Shown here: positions 17,591-46,510 of the stretch, one piece after another | Position numbering within the stretch: position 1 is the first letter of the stretch | Layout: the number at the start of each line of letters is the position of its first letter | Assembly (NCBI GenBank): GCA_009691195.1 | Contig: SHVA01000001.1 | Coordinates: 59,846 to 123,845 of the forward strand | Direction of reading: 5' to 3' | Source of the DNA: Solirubrobacterales bacterium | Lineage (GTDB): Bacteria; Actinomycetota; Thermoleophilia; Solirubrobacterales; 70-9 | DNA: 64,000 nucleotides | The notes under the pieces: generated by a model | Database searches by the model: none | What the model was told of the DNA's origin: nothing | The model's input: the letters and a program-made list of their open reading frames with translations, nothing else | Position numbers and translations under genes: made by a program

Positions 17591-17596
17591 TAGAAT
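17591..17596 (+). promoter_or_regulatory. -10-like hexamer TAGAAT at the ctaC start
   Basis: TAGAAT overlaps the first possible ctaC ATG (17595) and lies 10 bases before the second in-frame ATG (17607). If it is the -10 box, the functional start is more likely 17607. Confidence 0.4.
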
Positions 17597-18371
17597 GGCG
17601 CCGCGGATGAAGGGACTCCCTCTCGCAAGGATCTTCGCGGCGATCGTCGTCCTTACGGTCGTCATGTCGTTCATCATGCTGATCCCGAATTGGGACGGCG
17701 AGCAGGCGTCCACCGCGGCGCCGAAGATCGACGAGCTGCTCGACGTGATGATCGTGCTCTCCTCGTTCGTGTTCTCGATCGTGATGGTGATGCTCACCTA
17801 CGCGCTCTGGCGCTGGCGGGCCAAGCCCGGCGACGAGGGCGACGGCGAGCCGATCCACGGCAACACCAGGCTGGAGATCGCCTGGACCACGATCCCGACC
17901 GTGATCGTCCTCTTCGCCGCCGCCTACTCGTGGACGGTACTCGACAAGATCGAGACCGAGGACGCCGATCGGATGCCGATCACCGCGATCGGCCAGCAGT
18001 ACGAGTGGCACTTCGACTATCCAGACCAGGGCGTCACCTCCGAGGAGCTGCACGTGGTGACCGACCAGCAGATCGAGGTCAGCATGCGGGCCCTCGACGT
18101 GCTCCATTCCTTCTGGGTGCCCGAGTGGCGGATCAAGCGCGACGCCGTCCCCGGCGCCCCCGGCGCCAGCATCGACGATGACTTCGTGGTCACCCCGGAC
18201 AAGGCCGGAGCCTTCAGCCTGATCTGCACCGAGCTCTGCGGCATCGGCCACGCGACCATGCGCGCTCCGGTGGTCGTCGAGAGCCAGGCGGAGTTCAACA
18301 AGTGGGTCAGGACCCAGGACCCGCTGCCCAAGGACAGCGCCGCCGCCGCCAGTGAGGTCGCCCCCCAGTGA
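17595..18371 (+). CDS. ctaC: cytochrome c oxidase subunit II
   Basis: The subunit that takes electrons from cytochrome c through the CuA centre. The 258-residue product has an N-terminal hydrophobic segment, a second transmembrane helix (about 52-72), a third hydrophobic stretch near 95-112 and an external cupredoxin domain. The CuA ligands are all present: His171 in DVLHSFWVP, then Cys211, Cys215, His219 and Met222 in CTELCGIGHATM. The aromatic electron-entry segment is GQQYEWHFDYP. An alternative start at ATG 17607 would fit the -10 box better. First gene of the aa3 oxidase operon. Confidence 0.95.
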   Translation: MAPRMKGLPLARIFAAIVVLTVVMSFIMLIPNWDGEQASTAAPKIDELLDVMIVLSSFVFSIVMVMLTYALWRWRAKPGDEGDGEPIHGNTRLEIAWTTIPTVIVLFAAAYSWTVLDKIETEDADRMPITAIGQQYEWHFDYPDQGVTSEELHVVTDQQIEVSMRALDVLHSFWVPEWRIKRDAVPGAPGASIDDDFVVTPDKAGAFSLICTELCGIGHATMRAPVVVESQAEFNKWVRTQDPLPKDSAAAASEVAPQ

Positions 18372-18423
18372 CCCCGCTTGCGATAATCGCCCAGATGGAC
18401 TCGATCACAGAGGGAGCGCGCCG

Positions 18424-20331
18424 GTGAGGGCGGCACTGACGCAACCGGGCTGGTGGCGCGCACTCTTCTTCACGGTGATCGCCGGCGCCTTCGGCTTCGG
18501 CCTCGTGATCGGCCTGCGGGCGATCTCCGGCCTCGACCTGTTCCAGACCGAGCAGACGGGCTACCCCCACATCGTCGTCCCCGCGATCACCGCGCCGCTC
18601 GGCTTCCTGGTCGGGATCGGCTGCTTCGACTACTGGTTCCGCTGGGCCTCCGGGGCGCCGACCCAGCCCGAGGACCACTCCTGGCATGGCGCCACGAGCT
18701 GGAAGGACTACTTCCAGGTCAACACCGATCACAAGGTGATCGGGATCCAGTACATCGTCACCACCTTCTTCTTCTTCTTCGTGGGTGGCCTGATCGCGAT
18801 GATGATGCGCGCCGAGCTGGCCCAGCCCGGCACCCAGATCGTCGATCCGGCGACCTTCAACGGGCTCTTCTCAACGCACGCGGCGCTGATGATCTTCGTC
18901 TTCGTGATCCCGGTCTTCGCCGGGATCGCCAACTACGTGCTGCCGCTGATGATCGGCGCCCCCGACATGGCCTTCCCGCGGCTGAACGCGCTCAGCTTCT
19001 GGATGCTGCCGGTCGCCGGCGTCCTCTTCCTCTGCAGCTACATCGTCCCGGGCGGCGCCTTCGACGCCGGCTGGACCGGCTACGCGCCGTTGTCCACCGG
19101 GGCTCCACTCGGGCAATCGTTCTTCAACCTCGGGGTGCAGTTCGCCGGCGCCTCCTCGGTCGCGACAGCGCTCAACTTCCTGGTCACGATCATCACGATG
19201 CGGGCGCCGGGGATGAACTTCTGGCGGATGCCGCTGCTTGTCTGGGCCAACCTCTCGACCTCGCTGCTCGTGGTCGCCGCGACCCCCTTCATCGCGGGCG
19301 TGCAGTTCATGGTCCTGTTCGACCGCCTCCTGCACACCAACTTCTTCCAGGCGGCCTACGGCGGCGACGTCATCAGCTACCAGCACATCTTCTGGTTCTA
19401 CTCGCACCCGGCGGTCTACATCATGATGTTGCCGGGCTTCGGGATCGTCTCCGAGGTGATCTCCACCCACTCGCGAAAGCCGATCTTCGGCTACCGACTG
19501 ATGGCGCTGGCGCTGCTCGGGATCGTGGTGCTGAGCTACTCGGTCTGGGCGCACCACATGTTCGTCGCCGGCATGTTCAGCTGGCTGCGGGTGCCGATGA
19601 TGATCACGACGCTGCTGATCGCGGTGCCGACGGGGATCAAGATCTTCTCCTGGCTGGGGACCCTCTTCTATGGGAAGATCCACCTCAAATCGACCTCGAT
19701 GCTGTTCGCGCTCGGCTTCATCGTGACCTTCACGATCGGCGGCATCTCGGGCGTGATGCTGGGGATGATCCCGCTCGACATCCACGTCTCCGACACCTAC
19801 TTCATCGTCGCCCACATCCACTTCGTGCTCTTCGGCGGCTCGGTGTTCACGATCTTCGCCGGCATCTACCACTGGTTCCCGAAGATCACGGGTCGCATGT
19901 ACGACGAGAAGCTGGGGCGGATCCACTTCTACCTGACCCTCGCCGGGATGCTCGGGACCTTCGTTCCGATGCACTGGATCGGGATGGAGGGGATGCCCAG
20001 GCGCGTTGCCGACTACGCGGCGGAGTTCGGGGGCTGGAACCTCGAGATCTCGATCGCGAGCTTCATCCTCGGCGCCGCCCAGCTCGTCTTCCTCTACAAC
20101 ATGATCGTCTCCTGGCGCTTCGGGCCCAAGGCCCCGTCCAACCCCTGGCGGGCGAAGACGATCGAGTGGCAGGTCTCCTCACCGCCGCCGATCTTCAACT
20201 TCGATGAGATCCCGCGCGTCGTCGGCGGGCCCTACGAGTACGGCGTTCCGGGCGCCCGGCACGTGATCATGCCCGGCGAGAGCTCCGAGCTGCGAGAACC
20301 CGAGCGCTCGGGAGTCGGGGCGCCCACGTGA
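18424..20331 (+). CDS. ctaD: cytochrome c oxidase subunit I (A2-type haem-copper oxidase)
   Basis: The catalytic, proton-pumping subunit, 635 residues from the GTG at 18424. All six metal ligands are visible: His152 (STHAAL, low-spin haem a), His328 (YSHPAVY, CuB), His377-His378 (WAHHMF, CuB), His464 and His466 (VAHIHF, the haems), plus the cross-linked Tyr332. The usual HPEVY glutamate is absent and replaced by YSHPxV, the signature of A2-type oxidases. It is longer than average because of an N-terminal membrane extension (about residues 1-75). The open frame upstream of 18424 overlaps ctaC and is not used. Confidence 0.95.
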   Translation: MRAALTQPGWWRALFFTVIAGAFGFGLVIGLRAISGLDLFQTEQTGYPHIVVPAITAPLGFLVGIGCFDYWFRWASGAPTQPEDHSWHGATSWKDYFQVNTDHKVIGIQYIVTTFFFFFVGGLIAMMMRAELAQPGTQIVDPATFNGLFSTHAALMIFVFVIPVFAGIANYVLPLMIGAPDMAFPRLNALSFWMLPVAGVLFLCSYIVPGGAFDAGWTGYAPLSTGAPLGQSFFNLGVQFAGASSVATALNFLVTIITMRAPGMNFWRMPLLVWANLSTSLLVVAATPFIAGVQFMVLFDRLLHTNFFQAAYGGDVISYQHIFWFYSHPAVYIMMLPGFGIVSEVISTHSRKPIFGYRLMALALLGIVVLSYSVWAHHMFVAGMFSWLRVPMMITTLLIAVPTGIKIFSWLGTLFYGKIHLKSTSMLFALGFIVTFTIGGISGVMLGMIPLDIHVSDTYFIVAHIHFVLFGGSVFTIFAGIYHWFPKITGRMYDEKLGRIHFYLTLAGMLGTFVPMHWIGMEGMPRRVADYAAEFGGWNLEISIASFILGAAQLVFLYNMIVSWRFGPKAPSNPWRAKTIEWQVSSPPPIFNFDEIPRVVGGPYEYGVPGARHVIMPGESSELREPERSGVGAPT

Positions 20332-21215: not shown

Positions 21216-21838
21216 TGGAGAGCGCAAGCGTCAGCGTCGGCCACGCCGAGCACGAGCACCACGGCCCGCCCGAGGCCAACCAGAGCTCGCGGATCGACCG
21301 CCAGACCCTCGGGATCCTGCTTTTCATCATCACCGAGGCGATGCTGTTCGGCGCCTTCTTCTCCTCCTACTTCTTCATCCGCGTCGTCGCCAACGACGGG
21401 CCCTGGCCGCCGGATGGGTTCGAGCTTCCGGTCTCTGTGGCGTTCGTGAACACGCTGATCCTGGTCGCGTCGAGCTTCACCATGCACTGGGCGCTCGAGT
21501 CGATCCGGGCCGGCAACCACCGCGGGCTGAAGCTGGGCCTGGTCAGCACCCTGATGCTCGGCACCACCTTCCTCTTCATCCAGATCAACGAGTACATCCA
21601 CATCGGCTTCTCCGCCCGCGACGGCGCCTTCGGATCGATCTTCTACGGCCTCACCGGCCTCCACGGGGCCCACGTCTACGTCGGCCTGACGCTGCTCGCG
21701 ATCGCCTCGGTCCGCGCCTTCAGGGGCCACTACGGCCCCGACGGGAAGGACCACCTCGGCGTCGAGGTACCCGGGATCTACTGGCACTTTGTGGACGTCA
21801 TGTGGGTGATCGTCTTCACCGTCGTTTACGTCCTCTAG
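21215..21838 (+). CDS. ctaE: cytochrome c oxidase subunit III
   Basis: A 207-residue membrane protein with five predicted helices, the short form found in actinobacteria. Recognisable segments are [53 protein letters not shown] and the C-terminal [18 protein letters not shown]. The start ATG overlaps the upstream stop by one base. It completes the ctaC-ctaD-ctaE set. Confidence 0.95.
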
Positions 21839-23263: not shown

Positions 23264-23947
23264 CTACTTGCCGCCGTTGACCGACTGGAGCAGGTAGTTG
23301 ACGAGCTGGTTGAGCTGGGCCGGGGTGAGCTGGTCGCCGTAGGTCTGGGGCATCACGCCGGAGGAGAAGCCGCCCTCGATCTGGGCGTTGGGATCGGTGA
23401 TCGACTCGCTGACCTGGGCGGCTGTCTGGCCGGGCAGCACGTCGTCGAGGTTGGGCCCCACGCTGCCCGTGGTCCCGGCGGTGCTGAGCGTGTGGCAGCC
23501 GCCGCACGTGGTCGCGAAGAACTGGTCGGGGATGAACTCGGGCGCCTGGATGCCGGGCACGCCCGCGACGCTGGCGACGTAGGCGGAGACGTCCTCGGCC
23601 TCGGAGCCCTCGACGAGGTTGGCCGGCATGTAGACGGCGGTGTCCTGAGGGTCGGCCGGGCGCGGGTGCTCGATCTGGCCCTGGATGACGCCCTCGAAGG
23701 TGTCCTGATCCATGCCGGACTTGCGGGCCTCCTGGAAGGCGAGGTCGAGGTTGGGGCCGACGGCGCTGCTGGTGCCCGCCGCGGTCAGGGTGTGGCAGCT
23801 GCCGCACTTCTGGGTGAAGAGCTGCTGGCCGTTGTCGAGGTCGGACGTCTCCTGGAGGTCGCAGCCGGTGAGGGCCGCGAGCGCCGCAAGGGTGACCGCC
23901 GCGGAGAGCAGGAGCTTGATCTTTCTCGGGCGGGCCTTCGAGGTCAT
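23264..23947 (-). CDS. dihaem cytochrome c lipoprotein
   Basis: A 227-residue membrane-anchored cytochrome c with two CxxCH haem sites, CGSCHTLTAAGT and CGGCHTLSTAGT, in two homologous domains joined by an acidic linker. Each domain has a distal Met candidate (YMPANL, GVMPQTYG). The ATG at 23947 gives a basic start, a hydrophobic segment and the lipobox LTGC; codons upstream in this frame look untranslated. It probably delivers electrons to the aa3 oxidase encoded nearby. Confidence 0.88.
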   Translation of the reverse strand: MTSKARPRKIKLLLSAAVTLAALAALTGCDLQETSDLDNGQQLFTQKCGSCHTLTAAGTSSAVGPNLDLAFQEARKSGMDQDTFEGVIQGQIEHPRPADPQDTAVYMPANLVEGSEAEDVSAYVASVAGVPGIQAPEFIPDQFFATTCGGCHTLSTAGTTGSVGPNLDDVLPGQTAAQVSESITDPNAQIEGGFSSGVMPQTYGDQLTPAQLNQLVNYLLQSVNGGK

Positions 23948-24054
23948 CTGCGTAGGCAATCCTATCGGGCGCCCCCGCTGGGCCTCCCCGCCCGTGAGGT
24001 GGTCGGCTAGGCTTACATCGAAAGGCACTGGCAACGGCCGGAGCGGAGGATTCG

Positions 24055-25231: not shown

Positions 25232-25399
25232 ATGGAGCGCCGCATCGTTCCCAGCCATTTCAACCGGGACGGCAAGCCCAAGCGGGGATACCCGAAGGAG
25301 AGCGAGGCGCGCGATGAGGCCGCCCGCCTCGGGATGGAATTCTACCTCTGCGACTTCTGCAACCGCTGGCACCTGGCCAGCAAGCAGGGACCGGGCTAG
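25232..25399 (+). CDS. 55-residue protein with CxxC...WH motif
   Basis: A small gene with ATG at 25232 and TAG at 25397. The product is basic and charged in its first half (SHFNRDGKPKRGYPKESEAR) and ends in FYLCDFCNRWHLASKQG, a likely single metal-binding knuckle (CxxC followed by His). The codon pattern is coding-like. It may be a small zinc-binding or nucleic-acid-associated protein. Directly upstream is the 21-base repeat. Confidence 0.6.
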   Translation: MERRIVPSHFNRDGKPKRGYPKESEARDEAARLGMEFYLCDFCNRWHLASKQGPG

Positions 25400-25662
25400 C
25401 CGCGTCGGCGCGGGCGGAAGGCCGACAGCGGGATGCTGGCGCTGTCTGACTGCTGCTCGCGCGGCATCGCAGCGGTCTGGCGCCGGCTGTCGCGAAGCCA
25501 GGAGATCAGCGCCAGCAGAGCGATCAGGCCGCCCACGGCCGCGTAGGGCCACCAGGCGTAGATACCGACGATCACGAAGGCGAGGCCGGCCGCGAGCAGG
25601 GCCGGCATCCAGGATGGCCTGGGGGTGTAGACCCACTCGGTCGGCTTGGGGGGCTGGCTCAC
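25396..25662 (-). CDS. small membrane protein of the cox/ctaB cluster
   Basis: An 88-residue protein from the GTG at 25662. It has a Pro-rich N-terminus (QPPKPTEWVYTPRPSWMP), two hydrophobic helices (ALLAAGLAFVIVGIYAWW, AAVGGLIALLALISWL) and a polar tail. Its size and genomic place would suit a small accessory (subunit IV-like) oxidase component, but no family motif proves this. Its stop shares the palindromic bases CTAG with the stop of the convergent 55-residue gene. Confidence 0.6.
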   Translation of the reverse strand: MSQPPKPTEWVYTPRPSWMPALLAAGLAFVIVGIYAWWPYAAVGGLIALLALISWLRDSRRQTAAMPREQQSDSASIPLSAFRPRRRG

Positions 25663-25769
25663 GCCAGGTAGAGGATCGAGGCGTAGAAGGCTAGGCCGAA
25701 GACGAAGAGGATCAGGGCCCCGAGCCACATGCCGGAGCGGATGTTGGCGCGTGCGCGGTCGCGATCCAC
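25659..25769 (-). CDS. 36-residue single-helix membrane protein
   Basis: A short GTG-started gene. The product is a charged N-terminus (DRDRARANIRSG) followed by one helix, MWLGALILFVFGLAFYASIL. Support: the TGA overlaps the GTG of the next gene (GTGA), and a TAGATT -10-like hexamer lies 6 bases before the start. It sits directly downstream of ctaB. A tiny oxidase-associated subunit is possible but unproven. Confidence 0.6.
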   Translation of the reverse strand: MDRDRARANIRSGMWLGALILFVFGLAFYASILYLA

Positions 25770-25775
25770 GGCGGG

Positions 25776-25781
25776 AATCTA
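25776..25781 (-). promoter_or_regulatory. -10-like hexamer TAGATT before the 36-residue gene
   Basis: TAGATT on the minus strand ends 6 bases before the GTG at 25769 and overlaps the ctaB stop codon. It supports the small downstream gene having its own leaderless transcript. Confidence 0.4.
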
Positions 25782-26741
25782 CAACACCCGGTCGAGGGCC
25801 ATTGCCACGAACAGGAGCGCCAGGTACAGGAGGGAGCTGAGATAGAGCCGCCGCGCCGCAGCCGTTGATGGCCGCAGGGCGAGCGCCGCCGCGAGGCCGA
25901 TGAAGCAGGCCCCCAGCCCGAGAGCGGCAGCGAGGTAGATGGCTCCGAAGAGGCCGGTGGCGACGGGCAGCGCGGTGACGGTCACGAGCAGCACCGAGTA
26001 GGCGAGGATCTGGCGCCTGGTCACCGCCTCGCCGCGGACGACCGGCAGCATCGGCGTCCCGGTCTTGGCGTAGTCGTCCTTGATCAGCAGCGACAGCGCC
26101 CAGAAGTGGGGCGGGGTCCAGAGGAAGACGATCGCGAAGGGCCAGAGCGCGTCGAGGGTGAGGCTCCCCGTCGCCGCGGCCCAGCCGACCAACGGTGGCA
26201 TCGCGCCGGCGGCGCCGCCGAGGACGATGTTCTGCGGCGTCCGCGGCTTCAGCCACATCGTGTAGAAGAAGACGTAGCCCAGCAGCCCGACCGCGGAGAG
26301 GCCTGCCGCGAGCCAGTTGACGGTGAGCCCGAGCTGCAGCACGGCAGCCACGCCGAGGGTGATTCCGAAGGCGAGGCCGTGGGCGGGGCTGATCCGCCCG
26401 CTGGCCATGGGGCGGTGACTGGTCCTGGTCATCCTCGCGTCCGACTCGCGCTCGAGGTAGTGATTGATCGCCCCCGCGCCGCCGGCGGCGAGATAGCCGC
26501 CGAGCATGGTCCAGAGGATCGTCGCCAGCGGCGGCCCCGAGGGGTCGGCGACGAACATCGTCGCCACCGTCGTCAGCAGCAGCAGCGAGATGATCCGCGG
26601 CTTGGTCAGGGTGATGTAGTCGCGGACCAGCTCGCGAGCGGAGCTCGTCGCAGGGGAGGGCAGGGGACGGCGCGCCTGCACCGGCGAGCCGACCGGCGGC
26701 TCGATTCCGCCTCTCTCGAGTGTTCCTGTTTCGGCTTCCAT
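25779..26741 (-). CDS. ctaB: protohaem IX farnesyltransferase (haem O synthase)
   Basis: CtaB adds a farnesyl tail to haem B, the first step to haem A for the aa3 oxidase. The 320-residue UbiA-family membrane protein has about eight to nine helices. Both Asp-rich substrate loops are visible: NHYLERESDARMTRT (near residue 100) and the KDDYAKTGTPMLP loop, plus TPQNIVLGGAAGAMPP. It starts 2 bases after the ctaA stop. Confidence 0.95.
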   Translation of the reverse strand: MEAETGTLERGGIEPPVGSPVQARRPLPSPATSSARELVRDYITLTKPRIISLLLLTTVATMFVADPSGPPLATILWTMLGGYLAAGGAGAINHYLERESDARMTRTSHRPMASGRISPAHGLAFGITLGVAAVLQLGLTVNWLAAGLSAVGLLGYVFFYTMWLKPRTPQNIVLGGAAGAMPPLVGWAAATGSLTLDALWPFAIVFLWTPPHFWALSLLIKDDYAKTGTPMLPVVRGEAVTRRQILAYSVLLVTVTALPVATGLFGAIYLAAALGLGACFIGLAAALALRPSTAAARRLYLSSLLYLALLFVAMALDRVL

Positions 26742-26743
26742 TG

Positions 26744-27790
26744 TCAGGCGGCCGCCACCGGCGTTCCGGCCTTGGAAGGCCTCGCGGTGGCTCGGGATGG
26801 GACGCGCACCCAGGCCAGGGTATAGGCGATCAGCAGCACCGTCACCCAGAGCAGCGTCCCGGTGCCGAGGTGGGCGACGACCAGCGTCGCGTGCTTGCCG
26901 AGCATCACGTTGAGAACGCCGAGGCTGAACTGGGCGAGGAGCACGGCGGCCGTGAGCGCGAGCAGCTGCGAGCGCGAGCCGCGGTGGTAGGCAAAGCCGA
27001 GCAGGAAGAGGACGCTGAGGGTGGCGCCGTAGACGAGCACCCGGTGCGTCAGCTGGATGTCGATCAGGCGCGACTCGCCGAAGGGCAGCACGCCCTCGTT
27101 GGCACAGCCCGGGAACTGCTCGCCGCAGGCGAGGTGGGCACCGCCGACCGGGCCGTTCTCGACCCCCTCCTTCTCGGTGCCGGCGACGTAGCCGCCGGCG
27201 ACGATCGCCGCCAGCACCAGCACGGCCGCCACGGCGGATGCGGTGCGGAGGCCGCGGGGGGGCGTGGCCGCGGCCAGCTCGGCGCTGTGGGGTCCCTCGA
27301 GCGCCTGCTCGCGCCGCGCTCGTACCACCAGCCAGAGCAGGATCCCGAGCAGGATCATTGCCAGCATCAGGTGGGCCGCGACCAGAAGCTCGTGCAGGTT
27401 GTTCTCGACCGTGAACCCGCCCAGGACCGCCTGGCAGAGGACCAGCACGCCCGCGATCAGCGATCCCCGGAAGGCCCAGCGCTGCTCGGGGAGGTGCTTG
27501 TAGGCCCGCCAGGCCATCCAGACGATCAGGCCGACGACGACGGCCGCGAGCAACCGGTGTGAGAACTCGACGATTCGGTTGAGGTCGCCGATCAGCGGGA
27601 CCACCTGGCCGCCGCAGAGCGGCCAGCCCTCACTGCCGCTGCCGGCGGCACCGCAGCCCAGGCCCGAATCGCTGACCCGGACGATGCCGCCCACCAGGAC
27701 CAGGGCGAAGGTGACACCTGCGGTGGCCTCGACGAGTCGCTGAAAGCCGCGAAGCTCGCCGGCCCCGCCGCCGGCAAGGGAGCGCTCCAT
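26744..27790 (-). CDS. ctaA: haem A synthase
   Basis: CtaA oxidises haem O to haem A. The 348-residue protein is the eight-helix two-repeat form. Landmarks are VRVSDSGLGCG, the first His pair (IVEFSHRLLAA and LHELLVAAHLML) and the second (IQLTHRVLVY and VVAHLGTGTLLW), which are the haem ligands. The Cys pair in ACGEQFPGC lies on the external loop. It lies between ctaB and the unusual oxidase-like pair, all on one strand. Confidence 0.94.
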   Translation of the reverse strand: MERSLAGGGAGELRGFQRLVEATAGVTFALVLVGGIVRVSDSGLGCGAAGSGSEGWPLCGGQVVPLIGDLNRIVEFSHRLLAAVVVGLIVWMAWRAYKHLPEQRWAFRGSLIAGVLVLCQAVLGGFTVENNLHELLVAAHLMLAMILLGILLWLVVRARREQALEGPHSAELAAATPPRGLRTASAVAAVLVLAAIVAGGYVAGTEKEGVENGPVGGAHLACGEQFPGCANEGVLPFGESRLIDIQLTHRVLVYGATLSVLFLLGFAYHRGSRSQLLALTAAVLLAQFSLGVLNVMLGKHATLVVAHLGTGTLLWVTVLLIAYTLAWVRVPSRATARPSKAGTPVAAA

Positions 27791-27795
27791 GCGCC

Positions 27796-29496
27796 TCAGG
27801 CTACCGGGGCGCCTTGCTCGGCCTGCTCGCTCGAGCCCTCGCGCGCGAGGACAGCGTCACGTATGTCACGAAGCGGTTCGGCGCTGCGCACGTCGGGGAT
27901 CACGTCGAAGTTGTGCTCGGGGGGCGGCGAGGGCGCGTACCACTCCAGCGTCTCGCCGTGCCAGGGGTCCGGGCCGACCTCGACGCCGCGGCTGGCGCTC
28001 CGGGCCGCGTTGATTACCGAGACCAGAATCCCGATCGAGAGGACGACCGAGCCGATCGTCGCGATCAGGTTGTAGGTGTCGAGCCCCTGCCCCTCGAAGA
28101 AGCGGTAGGCGTCAACGGGCTGGCCCTCGAGGCCGGCCAGGAACATCGGGATGAAGGTGAGGTGGACGCCGACCAGGATCAGCAGCAGCGACAGCCCCGC
28201 CATCGATTCGCCCATCAGGCGGCCGGTCATCTTCGGGAACCAGTAGTGGAGCGCGGCCAGCCCGCCGAGCACCGAGCCGCCGACCAGCACGTAGGCGGTC
28301 TCCGCGGTGGCGGCGACGGTGTCGGCCAGCAGCCAGTTGACGGGGATCACGGCCTGGATCAGCTCTCCGGCGAGACCGAACGCGAGCGTGGAGATGGCGC
28401 CGAGCGCGAACAGCATCGGGGCGCGGAGCCGGATCGCGCCGCCGGCCAGCGTCGCCAGCCAGTTGTAGAAGGTCAGTCCCAGCGGGAGCAGCAGCAGCAG
28501 CGCCATCAGCATCGCACCGTAGAGCCAGCCGACGGGGATGGACGCCGTGAACATGTTTTGCATCCAGGCGAGCACGCCGAGGACCGGGATCGCGACCATC
28601 GAGGCGAGCACCGCGCCCCGTGAGAACAGCGGCTTGCCGCTGAACGTGGGCACGATCTCGGAAATCGCCCCGATCGCCGGCAGCAGCATCAGCACGTAGC
28701 AGCCGGTGAAGAAGATCCAGCTCAGGTGCTGGTAGTAGATCGGCGCGCCGCCCTCGCCGGCGTCGAAGAAGACGCCGTCGAAGTGTCGGTCGATCTCCAG
28801 CATCGTCAGCGCCGCGAGCATCAGTGGGCCGACGGCAAGCAGCAGCCAGCTCGAGACGGCGCCGGCGAAACTGAACGGCGCAAGCCGTCGCCAGGCCATA
28901 CCCGGCGCGCGCATGCGGCGCAGGGTCACCGTCAGGTTCAGCGCCTGCAGTGTCATCCCGAGCACGGCGAGCCCGACGGAGGTGATCCAGACGTCGACGC
29001 CATTGTTGGAGATGAAGGCCGGCTCCGAGAGCGGGGGAAGGGCGTTGAAGTTGGCCTCGGGCGGCGTGTAGGCGAAGCTGACGTAGAGCGCGGCTCCGGC
29101 GGAGAGGTAGAGCCAGAGGGCGAATGAGCCGAGTCGCGGGAAGGCCGTGCCACGAGCGCCGATCTGCAGCGGCACGACGTAGGTGAAGAGGCCGATCGCG
29201 AAGGGAACCGCGAACAGCACGATCAGCGTCGTCTGCCCGACCGAGAGCAGCCTGTCGAAGGTGATCGGCTCGATCAGCGTGTTCTGGGGGACCGCGAGCT
29301 GGGCTCGCATCAGGACGAACTCGACCAGCCCCAGCACGAGGAAGGCGAGCGAGGCGCCGATCATCAGCCGCCCCTGGTCCTTGTGGTCGCCGCTGGTGGT
29401 CAGCTCGATCCAGCGCGGGCGCCGGCTCGGGACGGCGTCGCTGACCAGCTCGGGCCGGTGGGGGGAGAGCGTGCTCGATCCGTTGCCGTCGCTCAC
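27796..29496 (-). CDS. cytochrome oxidase subunit I homologue lacking all haem/copper ligands
   Basis: A 566-residue membrane protein with the twelve-helix subunit I fold. Shared landmarks with the ctaD of this window are YVVPLQIGARGTAFPRLG, MRAPGM, IYYQHLSW, PTFSGKPLF and HYWFPKMTGRLMGE. The catalytic positions are changed. Low-spin haem His is Gly87, CuB His is Thr264 and the cross-linked Tyr is Val268 (FFTGCYV). The His-His pair is Gln313-Asn314 (WMQNMF). The two haem His of helix X are Glu399 and Ala401 (AETAYVL). The frame is intact. It cannot bind the usual cofactors as far as I can see. The GTG at 29496 overlaps the upstream stop. Confidence 0.85.
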   Translation of the reverse strand: MSDGNGSSTLSPHRPELVSDAVPSRRPRWIELTTSGDHKDQGRLMIGASLAFLVLGLVEFVLMRAQLAVPQNTLIEPITFDRLLSVGQTTLIVLFAVPFAIGLFTYVVPLQIGARGTAFPRLGSFALWLYLSAGAALYVSFAYTPPEANFNALPPLSEPAFISNNGVDVWITSVGLAVLGMTLQALNLTVTLRRMRAPGMAWRRLAPFSFAGAVSSWLLLAVGPLMLAALTMLEIDRHFDGVFFDAGEGGAPIYYQHLSWIFFTGCYVLMLLPAIGAISEIVPTFSGKPLFSRGAVLASMVAIPVLGVLAWMQNMFTASIPVGWLYGAMLMALLLLLPLGLTFYNWLATLAGGAIRLRAPMLFALGAISTLAFGLAGELIQAVIPVNWLLADTVAATAETAYVLVGGSVLGGLAALHYWFPKMTGRLMGESMAGLSLLLILVGVHLTFIPMFLAGLEGQPVDAYRFFEGQGLDTYNLIATIGSVVLSIGILVSVINAARSASRGVEVGPDPWHGETLEWYAPSPPPEHNFDVIPDVRSAEPLRDIRDAVLAREGSSEQAEQGAPVA

Positions 29497-30359
29497 TCGC
29501 TGCCTCCCGGCGCTTCGTCGCCTTCGCTGTTGTCGACCAGGGCCCCGCCCTCGGCGAGCTGGGCCTGAACGAACGCCTGACCCTTCTGGATTCCCTGAGC
29601 CTGCTCGGCGAGCCACTGCTGGTACTGGGGAACGTCAACGACCCGCACCCGCGTCCGCATCGCCGGGTAGCCGGCGCCTGAGAAGGCGTAGGAGGCGCCA
29701 TCGTAGACCCCCTCCTCATCCGCCCGGAACCAGGTCTGGTTGAGGGTTCCGGGGATCGCGTCGGCCTTCGCCCCGAGGCCCGGCACCCACCAGCGATGGA
29801 GGACGTCGGTCGAGTCGAGTGTGAGGAGCACCGTCGTATCCACCGGGACCACCAACTCGTAGTAGGAGAAGGTCTGGGGGAAGGAGGCGCTGGCGCCGGT
29901 GCCGGCCGGGGCGGAGGGGTTCGGGCTCGAGCTCTGGTCGGCGGCGGGCGCCGGGTACTCGTAGCGCCAGATCCACTGCTGGCCGACGGCCGTGATCTTG
30001 AGGGGCTGGGGATCGCCGCTGGGGACGTCGAGGGTCCGCTGGGCGGTCAGGGGCCTGGAGGCCTGGAGGCCGTCGGCGCCCGCGGAATCGAGTTTGGAGG
30101 CGCTGTGGGTGACGATCACGCCGGCCGCGAAGATTACGATGGCGATGGCGGTGAGGCCGCCTGCGACGATGAACTGCGCCCGCCCGCGGCTGCGCACCCG
30201 TCGCGCGCTGCGGCCGCGAACGGCGCGGTGGCGGACGACGAGCGCCACCAGGGCGGCGTTGGCGGCCAGCGCCAGCACGGCGGCGATCGCCAGCATCACC
30301 CAGTAGAGGGCGTTCAGGTCTTCGGCGTTCGGGGAATGGGCGCTTTCGGGGCCAAGCAA
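29493..30359 (-). CDS. cytochrome oxidase subunit II homologue lacking CuA ligands
   Basis: A 288-residue protein with two N-terminal transmembrane helices and an external cupredoxin-like domain. GQQWIWRYEYP and DVLHRWWVPGLGAKADAIPG match subunit II, but the CuA loop reads SYAFSGAGYPAM. The two Cys are Ser223 and Ser227 and the second His is Tyr231; His188 and Met234 remain. A Ser/Pro/Ala-rich insertion (about 138-160) separates the first strands. The start is a TTG. It is co-transcribed with, and overlaps, the ligand-free subunit I gene, so the two probably form a complex. Confidence 0.85.
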   Translation of the reverse strand: MLGPESAHSPNAEDLNALYWVMLAIAAVLALAANAALVALVVRHRAVRGRSARRVRSRGRAQFIVAGGLTAIAIVIFAAGVIVTHSASKLDSAGADGLQASRPLTAQRTLDVPSGDPQPLKITAVGQQWIWRYEYPAPAADQSSSPNPSAPAGTGASASFPQTFSYYELVVPVDTTVLLTLDSTDVLHRWWVPGLGAKADAIPGTLNQTWFRADEEGVYDGASYAFSGAGYPAMRTRVRVVDVPQYQQWLAEQAQGIQKGQAFVQAQLAEGGALVDNSEGDEAPGGSE

Positions 30360-30368
30360 GGCGCGGCC

Positions 30369-30374
30369 ATTCTA
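30369..30374 (-). promoter_or_regulatory. -10-like hexamer TAGAAT before the oxidase-like operon
   Basis: On the minus strand TAGAAT ends 9 bases before the TTG start at 30359 and no Shine-Dalgarno sequence follows. It suggests the oxidase-like pair is actively transcribed from its own promoter. Confidence 0.45.
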
Positions 30375-30399: not shown

Positions 30400-31587
30400 C
30401 TAGCCGCGGCCCGAGGGCCCATCGCCACCGCGGTGCAGCAGCGAGCCGGCTGCCCGCTCCCAGCGCTGCACGCCGGCGGCCCAGGTCTGCTCAGGAAAGT
30501 CCCGGATCGCCTGCCAGCGCAGGGCCTCGAGCCCGATCACGAAGAGCACGACCAGCAGGACGGAAACGGAGAGGCGGCTGAAGCCCGGGGTCGGGGACCA
30601 CCAGAAGAGCAGGCCGAGGACGATCAGCAGCGCCGCGTAGGCGGTGGAGCGCGAGTGCAGGATCGGCGCCAGCGCCCTGCGGGCTGCCCGGCCGAGGCCC
30701 GTCGGGCCAGCGAGCCAAGTTCCGATCACGATCACGATCCCGTAGAAGAGCATCGCGCCGCCACCGGCTGCGAGCAGCGAGGTCCCGATGCTCCAGGTCG
30801 CGTTGACGGCGGGCTCCGCCGAGGCGGTGGAGGCGAGCTGGCCGGTCACAGCGTCGCCGGCGACGTGGCGGATGACCAGGACCGCGATCCCGACCAGGAT
30901 GAAGCCGATGCCGACGCTTCGCAGCGCCTCCCTGCGCCAGCCCTTGGCGAGGAAGACCGCCAGTGCGTAGAGCACCAGCGCCAGCGCCGTCAGCGCCCAG
31001 GCGAACGTCTGCAGCAGGTCAACCGCCTTCTGTGCCGATTCCAGCTCGTTGTTTTCCAGGATCACGATTTGGCCGACGCCGGGCGGGAGCTTGGAGGCGG
31101 CGTCCACCCCGACCTGCCCGCCGAGCTGGGAGACGATCGTGGAGAGGTCGAGCTTCACGTCCTCGTCGCCTCCGTGCTGGATCACGTCGAGGAGGGTGCG
31201 GTGGGTGGCCTCGTTGGCCTGCTCCCAGAGCTGCTGGACCCTGGGCCGCTGAAGTGCGTCGTTGGCGAGATTGGTCGCGAGCTGGCGGATCGCGCCGGAG
31301 ATCGGGCCCGCCGCGGGCGCCGCGCGCGGCGGCAGCGCTTGCTGGATCTGGGCCTGGACGTCGGCCTCGGTGAAGAGCTCGTCCACCATGAAGCCCGACA
31401 CCTGCTCGCGGACGTCCTTGTTCTCGAGCAGCTCGGTGCTCGTCTCCGTCCACGCGTCCGTCTCGAGCAGCTGGCGCTTGGCCCAGACCGCGAAGACGGC
31501 GAGAAAGGCGACGATCGTGCCGACCACGACCAGCGCCACGACGGTCTTGTGCCTGGGGCGCGCCGCGACTGATCCCTCGGAACTCAT
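30400..31587 (-). CDS. four- to six-helix membrane protein of unknown function
   Basis: A membrane protein of 395 residues from ATG 31587, or 411 from an upstream GTG at 31635. It has one N-terminal helix (VVALVVVGTIVAFLAVFAVW), a long external region (about residues 50-190), then several helices in the C-terminal half ending in a Gly-rich tail. The external part contains LLENKDVREQVSGFMVDELF, a pattern seen in actinobacterial integral membrane proteins of unknown role. No catalytic motif is seen. Confidence 0.65.
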   Translation of the reverse strand: MSSEGSVAARPRHKTVVALVVVGTIVAFLAVFAVWAKRQLLETDAWTETSTELLENKDVREQVSGFMVDELFTEADVQAQIQQALPPRAAPAAGPISGAIRQLATNLANDALQRPRVQQLWEQANEATHRTLLDVIQHGGDEDVKLDLSTIVSQLGGQVGVDAASKLPPGVGQIVILENNELESAQKAVDLLQTFAWALTALALVLYALAVFLAKGWRREALRSVGIGFILVGIAVLVIRHVAGDAVTGQLASTASAEPAVNATWSIGTSLLAAGGGAMLFYGIVIVIGTWLAGPTGLGRAARRALAPILHSRSTAYAALLIVLGLLFWWSPTPGFSRLSVSVLLVVLFVIGLEALRWQAIRDFPEQTWAAGVQRWERAAGSLLHRGGDGPSGRG

Positions 31588-31686
31588 CGGCCGCCGTCCT
31601 AGTTCCTGGACGCTCGGGCTGTCACTTTCGAGCACCAGGGGCTAGAACTCTCGTGTCAACGGCTGCCATCAAGGCGACCGCCTAAC

Positions 31687-42696: not shown

Positions 42697-43698
42697 CTAT
42701 TCCTCGAGCACGCTCTTCTGGGTCAGCGTGTAGAGCAGGCCGAGGGAGGGGATGACGAGCACAACGGCAACTCCGAACACGATCAGCACCTCAATCAGGG
42801 TGTCGGCCGTCGCGGCCCCCTCCTTGATCGTCTGGGTCTCCGGCAGCAGGTAGGGGAACTGCGCGACCCCCCAGCCCCAGACCACCGCCGCCACGGCTCC
42901 CACCGCGAGCACGCGGGCGCCCCGGAGCGCCTCGCGGCGCAGCAGGATCAGCACACTGACGCCGCAGACGGCCGACAGGATCACCAGCGGCAGCGCGTCA
43001 CTGACGAGCCCGTCGTAGATGTAGCGCGCGTCGGCGTGGAAGACGAAGAGCCCCGCGGCGCCGAGAGCGCCGGCCGCGATGGCGGCGCCCAGGGCGCGGG
43101 TCCGGAAGTAGCGCTCGAGATCCGCATCCCCGGCCCGGCGCGAGTCGCTGACGAGGAAAACGGCCGCGAGGTAGGCGCTGGTCGCCACGAACAGCGCGCC
43201 CGTCAGCAACGAGACCGAGTTGAGCCAGCTCGTGACCGGGTCCCCCTCGGCGTTGCCCAGCGGCACCCGGCCCGACGCGATCGCGCCGACCACGGTGCCC
43301 ATGAAGAACGGCGTCAGCAGGGACGAGAGCCCGAAGAGTGTCTGGGAGACCCTGCGCTCACGGACGCTCGGAGCGAGCCGGTGGAAGGCGAACCCGCCCC
43401 CCCGGAGCACGATCCCGAGCGCTGCGAGGGAGAGCGGGATGAACAGCGTCGAGAAGATCGCCGCGAAGGCGGCGGAGAAGGCAGTCCAGAGCACCACCAG
43501 CACAAAGATCAGCCAGACGTGGTTCGACTCCCAGACCGGCCCGATGGCCCAGTCGATCAGCGTCCGCGCGCGCTTGCCGCGCTCGCTACCCCCCGCGAAA
43601 AGGGACCAGAACCCGGCTCCGAAGTCGGCGCCGCCGAAGACCGCGTACAGCGTGACGCCCACCCAAAGCACTCCGGCGACAGCGTCAGCAGTGCTCAC
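42697..43698 (-). CDS. cydB: cytochrome bd ubiquinol/menaquinol oxidase subunit II
   Basis: A 333-residue eight-helix protein, partner of CydA in the bd oxidase. Segments GVTLYAVFGGADFGAGFW, IGPVWESNHVWLIFVLVV and TPFFMGTVVGAIASG are the standard CydB landmarks. The GTG start overlaps the cydA stop (GTGA). The bd enzyme is an oxygen-scavenging terminal oxidase that complements the aa3 oxidase. Confidence 0.95.
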   Translation of the reverse strand: MSTADAVAGVLWVGVTLYAVFGGADFGAGFWSLFAGGSERGKRARTLIDWAIGPVWESNHVWLIFVLVVLWTAFSAAFAAIFSTLFIPLSLAALGIVLRGGGFAFHRLAPSVRERRVSQTLFGLSSLLTPFFMGTVVGAIASGRVPLGNAEGDPVTSWLNSVSLLTGALFVATSAYLAAVFLVSDSRRAGDADLERYFRTRALGAAIAAGALGAAGLFVFHADARYIYDGLVSDALPLVILSAVCGVSVLILLRREALRGARVLAVGAVAAVVWGWGVAQFPYLLPETQTIKEGAATADTLIEVLIVFGVAVVLVIPSLGLLYTLTQKSVLEE

Positions 43699-45086
43699 TT
43701 GCCGCCACCTCCGGCGCTCGCCGCAGGCGGGCCCTCGCCGGGCCCGTACGGAACGTCGGCGTCGAGGTTCTCGCCCTCGCGCCAGCGGCGGGCCATCGAG
43801 CGCAGCACCAGGATCGTTGCCGTGCCGAGCGCCGCATAGAGGAGCACCACGAGGCCGAACGTCACCCAGACGCCGTTGGCGCGGGTGACGGCTTCCTTGG
43901 TGCGCATCACCTCGTAGACGATCCAGGGCTGTCGGCCGACCTCGGTCACGATCCAGCCGGCCTCCATCGCGAGCACCGTCGCCACGCCCGACACCGCCAC
44001 GGCGCGCAGGAACCACTTCGTCTGCGGGATGTCGCGTTTGCGCCACCAGACGAACCCGAACCAGAGGCCGAGGGCGATCAGCGCCGAGCCGATCCCGACC
44101 ATGTAGTCGAAGGACAGGTGCAGAAGCGTCTTGGGCTGCGGCTGGTCCTTGGCGGGCACCGTGTCGTAGCCGGTCACCTCGGTGTCGGTGCTGAACCCGA
44201 CCAGCAACGAGTCAAGGCCGGGAATTGCGATTCCCCCCTTGACGCCGTCGTCGGTGCAGCGACCCCCGAGGTACTCGGTGACGTCGCGATGGGTCTTTTC
44301 AACGCACTCGATGGAGGCGAACTTGACCGGCTGGTCCTTGGCGATCGCCCGCGCCGCCGTGTCGCCGACCATGAACTGGATCGGGGCCAGGATGCAGCCG
44401 ACCGTGAGCGGGATCAGCAGGCCGAGGCGGTGGTGGCGGTCGCGGCGGCCTCGCAGCATCCCCACCGCGTAGACCGAGGCAACCAGGAAGCAGGTCACCA
44501 GATAGGCGGCCAGGATCATGTGCGGGACCTCGTACGGGACCGCGGGGTTGAAGATCACCTTGATCGGGTCCACGTCGGTGACCGCGCCGGCAGCGTCCAG
44601 CGTGAAGCCCTGGGGCTGGTTCATCCAGGAGTTAACCGCGACCACCGAGAAGGCGCCGCCGATCCCGCAGATCACCACCGGCACGCCGGTCCAGAAGTGC
44701 GCCCAGCCCGAGAGACGCTTCCAGCCGAAGATGTAGATCGCGATGAAGATCGCCTCGAGGAAGAAGAAGATCCCCTCGATCGTGAACAGCACCCCGAAGA
44801 CCTCGCCGAAGCGGTTGGTGAACTCCGGCCAGAGCAGCCCGAACTCGAACGACAGCACCGTCCCGGTGACGGCCCCGACCGCGATCGTCACCGCGGCGAC
44901 CTTCGACCAGCGCTGCGCCAGCTCGAGCGCGACCGGGTCCTTGCGGCGCAGCCCGATGTAGTTCGCGATCAACATCAGCGCGGGGAAGCCGACCCCGAGG
45001 CTGGCGAGGATGATGTGGAAGCCGAGCGTGAACGCCATCTGCTCGCGGGCGGCGAGCAGGTTGTCGGTGGCGAGCAGGAGGTTCAC
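43695..45086 (-). CDS. cydA: cytochrome bd oxidase subunit I
   Basis: The catalytic subunit, 463 residues from the GTG at 45086. Haem ligands are the His in FTLGFHIILASLG, the His in YEVPHMILAAYL and a Met in the later helices. The quinol-binding loop includes EAGWIVTEVGRQPW. The Q loop is short. The upstream open frame overlaps DUF2252 sequence and is not used. No cydDC genes follow within the window. Confidence 0.95.
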   Translation of the reverse strand: MNLLLATDNLLAAREQMAFTLGFHIILASLGVGFPALMLIANYIGLRRKDPVALELAQRWSKVAAVTIAVGAVTGTVLSFEFGLLWPEFTNRFGEVFGVLFTIEGIFFFLEAIFIAIYIFGWKRLSGWAHFWTGVPVVICGIGGAFSVVAVNSWMNQPQGFTLDAAGAVTDVDPIKVIFNPAVPYEVPHMILAAYLVTCFLVASVYAVGMLRGRRDRHHRLGLLIPLTVGCILAPIQFMVGDTAARAIAKDQPVKFASIECVEKTHRDVTEYLGGRCTDDGVKGGIAIPGLDSLLVGFSTDTEVTGYDTVPAKDQPQPKTLLHLSFDYMVGIGSALIALGLWFGFVWWRKRDIPQTKWFLRAVAVSGVATVLAMEAGWIVTEVGRQPWIVYEVMRTKEAVTRANGVWVTFGLVVLLYAALGTATILVLRSMARRWREGENLDADVPYGPGEGPPAASAGGGGK

Positions 45087-45100
45087 GGCGTCAGCGAGCC

Positions 45101-46510
45101 TTACATCACGGTCAGACGTCCGTGGTGGCCTTGAGCCGGCCGCTCTCGACGGCGGCAACGACCGCGGCGTAGTCGCCGGTCGTTCTGGTCGGCGTAGGCC
45201 TCGGCGAAGGTGGCGATGGCGCGGTCGAAGCTGTCACCGGAGCCGAGGTAGGCCGAGATCGCGACCCGGTCTCCCGAGCGCGCGTGGGCGCGCGCCAGCG
45301 TCCATCCGCAGGCGCGGCCGTAGGAGCCGAGCGCCTCCTCGTCCATCCGGTCGACGTCCGCCGAGCCCTTCCAGTCCCAGAGCTGGCGCACGTAGAAGTC
45401 GCGGGAGCGCCCGTCGATCCCGGTCGCGTTGATCCAGCCGAGGAACGGGTCGCCGGCGGCCTGCATCAGCCACTGGCCCTCGACCACTCGCCGGCCCTGG
45501 TTGCTGTAGGCGCTGGCACCCGCGAACGGCGCGAGCGCGGAGTCCGCCGCCTCCTTGACCTGGAGGAATAGCGGGTCCTCATCGTCGCGGCCGAGCAGGA
45601 GGATGATCCAGGCGCGCGTGCCGACGCTTCCCACACCCACCACCTTGTGGGCCATGTGGACGTAGCGGTAGCTCTCCATCAGGTGGCGGCCGCCACCCGG
45701 GAGCGTGCTCCGGTAGGAGCGCAGCAGCTTCCGGATCTCGGCTTCGATGTCCTTGCCGGCCTCGCCGGGCAGGAGCTCCTCGATCGGCACGATCAGGGGC
45801 GGCTGGCTGACGATCCGGCGCTCGCCGTCCACGACCGTGGTCAGCTTCGAGAGGGCTCGCAGGCTGTCCTTGGATCGGGCCTTGGTCACCGTCCTCTTGA
45901 CCTGTTGCGTGCGCTTCTTGCTGGCCTCGGCGCCCCAGCGATCGAGCAGCTTCTCGATAGCGAGCCGGGCGTACCAGACGTCGAGGTTGCGCATCCTCGA
46001 GAACTCCCCCATCGCGATGCGGTACTCGCCGGCGGTCGCCAGCAGGGCCCCCCGACGCTGCTTGGCGCTGAAGCCGCGGTTGCGGCCCGCGATCGCGACG
46101 CTGGCCGCGAGCCGCTTCAGGTCCCACTCCCAGGGACCGGGGAGGGTCTCGTCGAAGTCGTTGATGTCGAAGACCTGCTGGCGGTCGGGGGCGGCGAAGC
46201 CCCCGAAGTTCGAGAGGTGGGCGTCCCCGCAGAGCTGGACCTGCCGGCCCGCGTTCGGAGTCTGGGCGAGATCCCACGCCATCAGGGCGGCGGCGCCGCG
46301 AAAGAAGGTGAAGGGGGATTCGAGCATGCGCCCGTAGCGGAGCGGGAGCAGCTCCTGGACCCGGGTCGTTCCCTGCTGCTCGAGGACTTCCACCGGATCG
46401 GGCCGGTCGCTCGGCGGCTCCCATGCGGCGTGGCTCGCGCGCTTGGATCGCTTTCGCGCCTGCTTGCCGGCGGCCTGGCGCTGCTCGATTGAGGGATGCT
46501 CGATCTTCAC
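45101..46510 (-). CDS. DUF2252 protein with frameshifted C-terminus
   Basis: A DUF2252-family protein (kinase-like fold, function unknown), 469 residues as read. Typical segments are RYGRMLESPFTFFRGAA, LCGDAHLSNFGGFAAPDR, FDINDFDETLPGPWEWDLKRLAAS and VVEGQWLMQAAGDPFLGW. The last residues after YADQN read as an Arg-rich shadow. In the +1 frame the expected ending DYAAVVAAVESGRLKATTDV followed by TGA at 45112 is present, so there is one extra base near 45174-45179. The GTG at 46510 is chosen as start. Confidence 0.82.
   Translation of the reverse strand: MKIEHPSIEQRQAAGKQARKRSKRASHAAWEPPSDRPDPVEVLEQQGTTRVQELLPLRYGRMLESPFTFFRGAAALMAWDLAQTPNAGRQVQLCGDAHLSNFGGFAAPDRQQVFDINDFDETLPGPWEWDLKRLAASVAIAGRNRGFSAKQRRGALLATAGEYRIAMGEFSRMRNLDVWYARLAIEKLLDRWGAEASKKRTQQVKRTVTKARSKDSLRALSKLTTVVDGERRIVSQPPLIVPIEELLPGEAGKDIEAEIRKLLRSYRSTLPGGGRHLMESYRYVHMAHKVVGVGSVGTRAWIILLLGRDDEDPLFLQVKEAADSALAPFAGASAYSNQGRRVVEGQWLMQAAGDPFLGWINATGIDGRSRDFYVRQLWDWKGSADVDRMDEEALGSYGRACGWTLARAHARSGDRVAISAYLGSGDSFDRAIATFAEAYADQNDRRLRRGRCRRRERPAQGHHGRLTVM

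Follow-up and report, generated by a model that had tools for sequence, protein, structure and literature searches.

A 64,000-nucleotide stretch of the genome of a Solirubrobacterales bacterium (assembly GCA_009691195.1, contig SHVA01000001.1, positions 59,846 to 123,845; hereafter the window) carries, besides the genes of a working aa3-type cytochrome c oxidase, a second pair of genes for oxidase subunits I and II in which the residues that hold the redox metals have been replaced. That this pair is a pseudo-oxidase with an intact fold is near certain; it would be free of metal and incapable of using oxygen. Its role is a more tentative matter. Judging from the sequences and the gene company, the pair may be a non-catalytic scaffold on which the working aa3 oxidase is brought together with the haem-A enzymes CtaA and CtaB, a reading to which we give a probability of about 0.4. 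The two pairs lie as follows (aa, amino acids; nt, nucleotides):

27796..29496, minus strand: pseudo-subunit I, CtaD-like, 566 aa, GTG start (Pfam, NCBIfam, alignment, homologue list, AlphaFold2 model, fold search)
29493..30359, minus strand: pseudo-subunit II, CtaC-like, 288 aa, TTG start (Pfam, NCBIfam, alignment, homologue list)
29493..29496, minus strand: GTGA, the 4-nt overlap of the pseudo-subunit II stop codon with the pseudo-subunit I start codon (sequence and frames)
17595..18371, plus strand: ctaC of the working aa3 oxidase, CuA motif intact (Pfam, NCBIfam, alignment)
18352..20331, plus strand: ctaD of the working aa3 oxidase, six His and the Tyr present, true start maybe further in (Pfam, NCBIfam, alignment)

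Both pseudo-oxidase frames are intact and overlapping, as originally predicted, and that of subunit I sits within a longer open reading frame that is open up to 29616. The overlap likely couples translation of the two products.

Ligand columns were read against the window's own ctaD and ctaC, which are 33% and 29% identical to pseudo-subunits I and II, respectively, and residue numbers in subunit I follow the 566-aa protein. All six haem and CuB histidines are gone from pseudo-subunit I, with Gly87, Thr264, Gln313, Asn314, Glu399 and Ala401 in their places, and Val268 stands at the position of the cross-linked Tyr. Gly116 occupies the position of the D-channel Asp, Thr342 that of the K-channel Lys, and Val461 and Asp462 those of the haem-propionate Arg pair; the roles of these positions and of the metal ligands are presumed to be those of known oxidases. 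The CuA site of an oxidase consists of two Cys, two His, a Met and the backbone of a Glu. In pseudo-subunit II, Ser223, Ser227 and Tyr231 replace the two Cys and one His, and the ligands His188 and Met234 are retained. The original prediction had named the seven residues of subunit I that stand at the His and Tyr positions and the three replacements in subunit II, and it was right on each. Because the pair has neither a redox-metal ligand set nor the proton-channel residues, catalysis and proton pumping are not expected, and a proton channel, one of the roles first suggested for it, is not supported, given the loss of the D- and K-channel residues.

By fold and by sequence family the pair belongs to the haem-copper oxidase superfamily; by the catalytic histidine sextet it does not. 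The Pfam models COX1 (PF00115; 301.6 bits against a cut-off of 34.8) and COX2 (73.2 bits) match the two proteins, which miss the NCBIfam equivalog cut-offs (CtaD_CoxA, 411.5 against 670.75; CoxB, 129.9 against 147.7). Of the working subunits, CtaC scores 165, above the CoxB cut-off, and CtaD scores 657.2, just under that for CtaD_CoxA, so that the latter cut-off alone is not decisive. An AlphaFold2 model of pseudo-subunit I from 48 rows, which replaced a 26-row model with a predicted local distance difference test (pLDDT) score of 64.1, reached a pLDDT of 86.1 and a predicted template-modelling score (pTM) of 0.88. The 50 PDB matches listed for it are oxidase subunit I, at query-normalised template-modelling (TM) scores of 0.83-0.89. 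Closest among those listed are aa3 subunit I from supercomplexes of Corynebacterium and Mycobacterium, at query TM 0.87-0.89, and that of Paracoccus (1ar1), which aligns at TM 0.84/0.90 with a root-mean-square deviation of 2.0. This match is partly expected, as the input alignment of the model included working oxidases.

The same losses recur in relatives. Homologues were counted among the 120 top-ranking matches to each subunit, from totals of 5721 for subunit I and 877 for subunit II; each set includes the window's own protein, and working oxidases are expected among the lower-ranking matches. In the remaining 119 subunit I homologues, His is absent from all six ligand columns, and all 119 have Asn at position 314, with Gln (112) or Glu (7) at 313. 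The first of the three lost CuA positions is Ser in 117 and Ala in 2 of the 119 subunit II homologues, the second is Ser in 118 and Asn in 1, and the third is Tyr in 118 and Thr in 1; His188 and Met234 are present in every one. A survey of 50 genomes of the window's GTDB family, its own included, recovered a subunit I homologue (expectation value E <= 1e-100) in 47, covering 12 of 12 genera. None of the 47 matched stretches contains a stop, some of them ending at contig ends, and one copy (in G550) is short, at 456 aa. Chance or sequencing error as the source of the substitutions is rejected by the best-listed homologues of each subunit (119 of 119) and by the 47 genomes. It is exceedingly improbable that the pair is decaying and has been caught before its frames break, or that it is an artefact of assembly, a notion already refuted by the survey unless the genomes share the artefact. 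The short copy, drift at the haem a ligand positions and an evolution faster than that of the working copy in matched genome pairs would fit decay, but not the retention across all genera in stop-free stretches, and identical substitutions occur in independent assemblies, including the one-contig genome G093.

The ligand columns were read in 30 family loci, the window's and 29 others. None of them has a CuB His, the haem a3 His or His87; His401, a haem a ligand, is retained in 16, and 14 have zero of the six histidines. Asn314 and Arg115 are found in all 30 and Gln313 in 29 (Arg in L118). Full-length Solirubrobacterales members that were read have lost all CuB and haem a3 ligands, many of them with His401, and where a working oxidase copy shares the locus with a pseudo copy, the working one keeps all ligands. 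The CuA region was readable in 26 loci, 25 from the window's family and one from a sister family, f4 (L032 and L049, not caught by the motif, are unscored). Neither Cys nor the third-ligand His occurs in any of these; the triplet is Ser/Ser/Tyr in 21, Ala/Ser/Tyr in 4 and Ser/Ala/Phe in 1, and the Met is kept in all 26.

Tyr87 and His401 occur together in 15 of 28 aligned family rows (the sub-clade L006-L010, L012, L014-L021 and L033) and in 16 of the 29 further-read loci, and members of this sub-clade may have a Tyr/His-ligated low-spin haem. Tyr and His are a ligand set of known haem-transfer proteins. It is improbable, though the paired residues speak for it, that part of the family still holds haem at such a site and carries it from CtaA and CtaB to CtaD. 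The window itself has Gly87 and Ala401, three more loci with Tyr87 (L120-L122) have Ser401, and the propionate arginines are lost across the family (Asp462 in 27 of 28 rows). In addition, Leu375 and Glu378 replace two glycines that presumably face haem a3, going by alignment position and by known oxidase structures, and the former haem pocket would therefore appear to be plugged, not empty.

The sequences give no sign that other residues have taken over as ligands, a possibility that the original prediction had raised for His. In the sequence alignment of the 28 family rows (residues 28-529), the membrane core has no new conserved His or Cys, and the conserved His, Cys or Met at 38, 232, 257, 315 and 329 are mostly His or Met in working copies too. 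The only new conserved His, His528, lies in the C-terminal tail, where Asp535, Arg537 and Arg546 are likewise conserved in the family and not in working copies; substitute metal ligands elsewhere in the protein were rejected on this ground. The C-terminal Pro-Val-Ala of pseudo-subunit I (27799-27807) is invariant in 26 close homologues and common, if not universal, in the family. In pseudo-subunit II, a 10-residue insertion, SSPNPSAPAG (29901-29930), is near-private to the window, being a gap in 115-118 of the 119 best-listed relatives.

To what extent the rest of the protein has been kept can be seen from the columns that are invariant (>=97%) in 31 working rows. A column counts as kept if half or more of the 28 family rows share its residue; by this measure, 43 of the 66 invariant working columns are kept and 23 are lost. 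Among the lost columns, Gln313, Asn314, Leu375, Glu378 and Asp462 have been re-fixed (27 or 28 of 28 rows), and columns 87, 150, 268, 273, 316, 371, 387, 392, 394 and 461 drift. The ratio of nonsynonymous to synonymous substitution rates (dN/dS; Nei-Gojobori, pairs 70-98.5% identical, dS < 2) is 0.117-0.473 for the degraded copy, with a median of 0.246 (36 distinct pairs), and 0.076-0.608 for working ctaD, with a median of 0.251 (56 pairs); the medians are alike, but the pair sets differ. As high guanine-cytosine content and codon bias likely lower dS, these ratios are upper-side estimates. Purifying selection on the amino acids of the degraded copy is supported by these values. The repurposed oxidase fold that was first proposed is supported by the family-wide absence of ligands, the intact frames, purifying selection, the re-fixed pocket residues and the confident oxidase-fold model.

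The pseudo-subunit pair heads a tight minus-strand run with ctaA and then ctaB, both identified by family models, in agreement with the adjacency noted at the outset. The neighbouring features are:

26744..27790, minus strand: ctaA, haem A synthase, 5 nt 3' of pseudo-subunit I (Pfam PF02628, 117.7 bits)
25779..26741, minus strand: ctaB, haem O synthase, 2 nt 3' of ctaA (NCBIfam haem o synthase, 360.8 bits against a cut-off of 246)
25396..25680, minus strand: small membrane protein, perhaps oxidase subunit IV-like, start provisional (weak Cyt_c_ox_IV match below cut-off, E 0.033)
23264..24034, minus strand: two-domain cytochrome c, on the same strand as the pseudo-oxidase operon
21305..21832, plus strand: subunit III (COX3) match, the only COX3 found in the window's own genome assembly (92.65% complete)
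30369..30374, minus strand: TAGAAT, a -10-like hexamer 5' of pseudo-subunit II (5/6 match, 9 nt before the start)

The same assembly has two COX1 matches, the working ctaD and pseudo-subunit I. The genes for the small membrane protein and the cytochrome c are also found near the pair in many related loci. The -10-like box of the original prediction exists, but a promoter scan 5' of pseudo-subunit II found no two-hexamer promoter, which makes the hexamer weak evidence. A 411-aa protein encoded 5' of the pair on the same strand (30400-31635) has no Pfam or NCBIfam match at E 0.001. Farther off, at 42697-45158, are genes that resemble those for cytochrome bd oxidase subunits (recognised by eye only).

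Subunit II lies 5' of subunit I in 22 of 23 further family loci, and ctaB is present in 21 of 23 (stretches of 3.4-4.7 kb). Many related loci have no ctaA match beside the pair. All 17 genomes tested do encode ctaA, and loss of haem A synthesis was rejected accordingly. These layouts also bear on the idea that the pair is a leader only, its frames surviving through translational coupling to ctaA and ctaB and its products irrelevant. The spacing in the window, a 4-nt overlap followed by gaps of 5 and 2 nt, would suit such a leader, but with dN/dS well below 1, new near-invariant pocket residues and the many loci without a ctaA match beside the pair, it is very unlikely and already disfavoured.

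The degraded pair probably descends from a working second oxidase, CtaC2-CtaD2, as the trees and synteny suggest. In two sister families this second oxidase, its subunit I ligands complete, occupies the corresponding locus in all 8 genomes read, in the order ctaC2-ctaD2-(ctaA)-ctaB. The working CtaC2 has Cys-x3-Cys-x3-His wherever the motif was matched (L037 is unscored), and in three longer sister-family stretches (L046, L051 and L056) a CBS-domain gene comes next on the opposite strand, as in the window's family. In a further sister family, f4 (two genomes), the copy at this locus is degraded in another way, with the first CuB His kept in both and the residues SHFQVAH and SHYVVSL at 87, 264, 268, 313, 314, 399 and 401. 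In a careful tree built without the ligand columns, the window's family, f4 and working CtaD2 group together at 99/91.5, and the family and f4 at 100/100. Long branches may have helped the latter join; Ser/Ser/Tyr in an f4 subunit II (L050) agrees with it. The original prediction had asked whether homologues would restore the His and Cys ligands. None of the 119 best-listed homologues does so, whereas outside the clade the sister families keep all subunit I ligands (8 of 8), and within the family 16 of 30 loci keep His401. The ligand-bearing oxidases and the retained His401 therefore show the ancestor and a graded loss, and do not undo the claim that the pair is metal-free.

A second degraded group, Acidimicrobiia-like, came from searches of a phylum sample of 296 genomes and a class sample of 148, for which the query was first an Acidimicrobiales copy and later a relative; the class assignment of the group rests on two Acidimicrobiales records, L023 and L024. 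Ligands were read in 30 loci returned from the class sample. Thirteen are intact; in the other 17, at least two of the three CuB histidines are missing, for a total of three to seven lost out of the seven positions. In one intermediate, L094 (G526), Arg, Ala and Gly replace the CuB histidines, and both haem a His, the haem a3 His and the Tyr are retained; losses in the other 16 amount to between four and seven of the seven. Within the stretches read (4.2-4.6 kb, too short to show a ctaB farther away), ctaB accompanies 17 of 17 degraded copies and 1 of 13 intact ones, and 16 of the 17 degraded copies have a COX3-like match. The gene order is ctaB, pseudo-I, COX3-like, ctaC, ctaD, ctaE in L023, L024, L072, L073, L074 and L077 (COX3-like unscored in L024), and the cut-off stretch L075, with pseudo-I between ctaB and ctaC, fits this order as far as it is readable. 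The Acidimicrobiia-like degraded copies evolve fast, and the assignment of their last two ligand columns differs from one alignment to another, as in L023.

A 74-row tree unites all degraded copies at 99 in the Shimodaira-Hasegawa-like approximate likelihood ratio test (SH-aLRT), but with a long-branch warning. When the degraded groups are placed singly among working rows, the window's family and f4 each join CtaD2 (92 and 95, respectively), and the Acidimicrobiia-like copies join L057/L070. Given that this second group falls elsewhere when placed alone, two or more independent origins of the degraded copies are likely though not proven, and a single origin, resting on the long-branch-prone union, is disfavoured without being settled.

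How, then, might the metal-free pair act? The scaffold reading supposes that its product would be made without metal and would dock with the working oxidase, or with CtaA and CtaB, during assembly. A scaffold or partner of this kind would be the simplest mechanism, in view of the retained fold, both core subunits, the family-specific tail and the gene company, which includes ctaB, the working oxidase and, in many cases, ctaA. Several observations weigh against it. In the window's family, the linkage to ctaB, part of the gene context from which the scaffold role is drawn, says less than it might because it was inherited from CtaC2-CtaD2. In one genome, G029 (97% complete), ctaA is present, the single COX1-like match is presumably the working copy, and the pair has no match; as two genomes of its genus carry the pair, the pair can be lost. 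There is no match to the pair in G561 (54% complete) or G573 (78% complete) either. The mean entropy is 1.26 in the lost columns and 1.17 in the core, so that the former are not better conserved overall and re-fixing is true of a subset only. The degraded copy has about twice the dN of the working copy in matched genome pairs (0.224 vs 0.100 for the window and L004; 0.078 vs 0.034 for L016 and L021). Finally, the pair does not track the loss of SURF1, a haem-insertion factor. SURF1 was found in none of 14 Thermoleophilia-side genomes tested (the window's own and 13 more), regardless of whether their second oxidase is working (CtaD2 in three genomes), degraded or missing, and in 3 of 3 genomes tested of the second group; a Pfam scan found no SURF1 domain in the pair. 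Replacement of SURF1 by the pair is thus rejected as a simple rule.

Instead of serving transiently in assembly, the pair could be a permanent, stoichiometric non-catalytic subunit of complex IV, in a heteromer or supercomplex with the working CtaCDE, which we consider unlikely, if less so than the alternatives above. Both subunits of the pair are kept, subunit I with the oxidase fold; in the second group, pseudo-I and its COX3-like partner lie in the gene run of the working oxidase; and the best structural matches listed are subunit I of actinobacterial III2-IV2 supercomplexes, which may reflect ancestry alone. On the other side, G029 does without the pair, and the interface is hypothetical. 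We continue to favour the scaffold. Taking both groups together, the chance is a little below even that, on two or more occasions within the Actinomycetota, a second haem-copper oxidase was stripped of its metal sites and became a metal-free pseudo-oxidase with a working place in complex IV or in the assembly of that complex, as a pair of subunits I and II in Solirubrobacterales and as a pair of I and III within the aa3 gene run in the Acidimicrobiia-like group.

If so, the haem-copper superfamily would have in these proteins its first class of pseudoenzymes. The histidine-sextet rule is broken by a lineage in which fold, core subunits and operon persist and non-ligands have been fixed, a natural experiment on a metal-free oxidase fold, and the graded losses across lineages, from the three CuB ligands only in L094 to four to seven of the seven positions in others, record how a respiratory enzyme becomes a non-enzyme. 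A search of the open-access literature, a scope that leaves aside subscription papers and preprints, found no description of such a protein; the original prediction likewise knew of none. Homologues that carry a name in their source are labelled cytochrome c oxidase subunit I, cbb3-type subunit I, subunit II or similar, likely a widespread misannotation; since they are named as oxidase subunits, genome and metagenome surveys may count pseudo pairs as oxygen reductases.

The histidine sextet is described as a signature of the haem-copper superfamily (PMC3413370). Nitric oxide dismutase and other divergent nitric oxide reductases are members with an altered active site, as is the pair, but in the pair the sextet is gone. 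With the A-type aa3 oxidase (CtaC/CtaD) the pair shares the architecture of subunits I and II, the fold, ctaA and ctaB beside it and, in the trees, descent from CtaD2; unlike that oxidase, it has no haem a, haem a3 or CuB ligands, no CuA cysteines, no propionate arginines and no channel residues, including the D-channel Asp and K-channel Lys of a proton-pumping A-type enzyme. The quinol oxidases (CyoA/CyoB and QoxA/QoxB) have a subunit II without CuA and a subunit I with the histidine sextet. A CuA-less subunit II is common to them and the pair, but the pair has no ligand-bearing subunit I, the sextet being lost, and scores far below the NCBIfam quinol cut-offs (CyoB, 334.2 against 1020.35). 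The mitochondrial bc1 complex contains inactive, peptidase-like core proteins that derive from an enzyme and are kept as structure. Those pseudo-subunits of a respiratory complex come from an enzyme unrelated to it, whereas the pair is a copy of the oxidase core itself.

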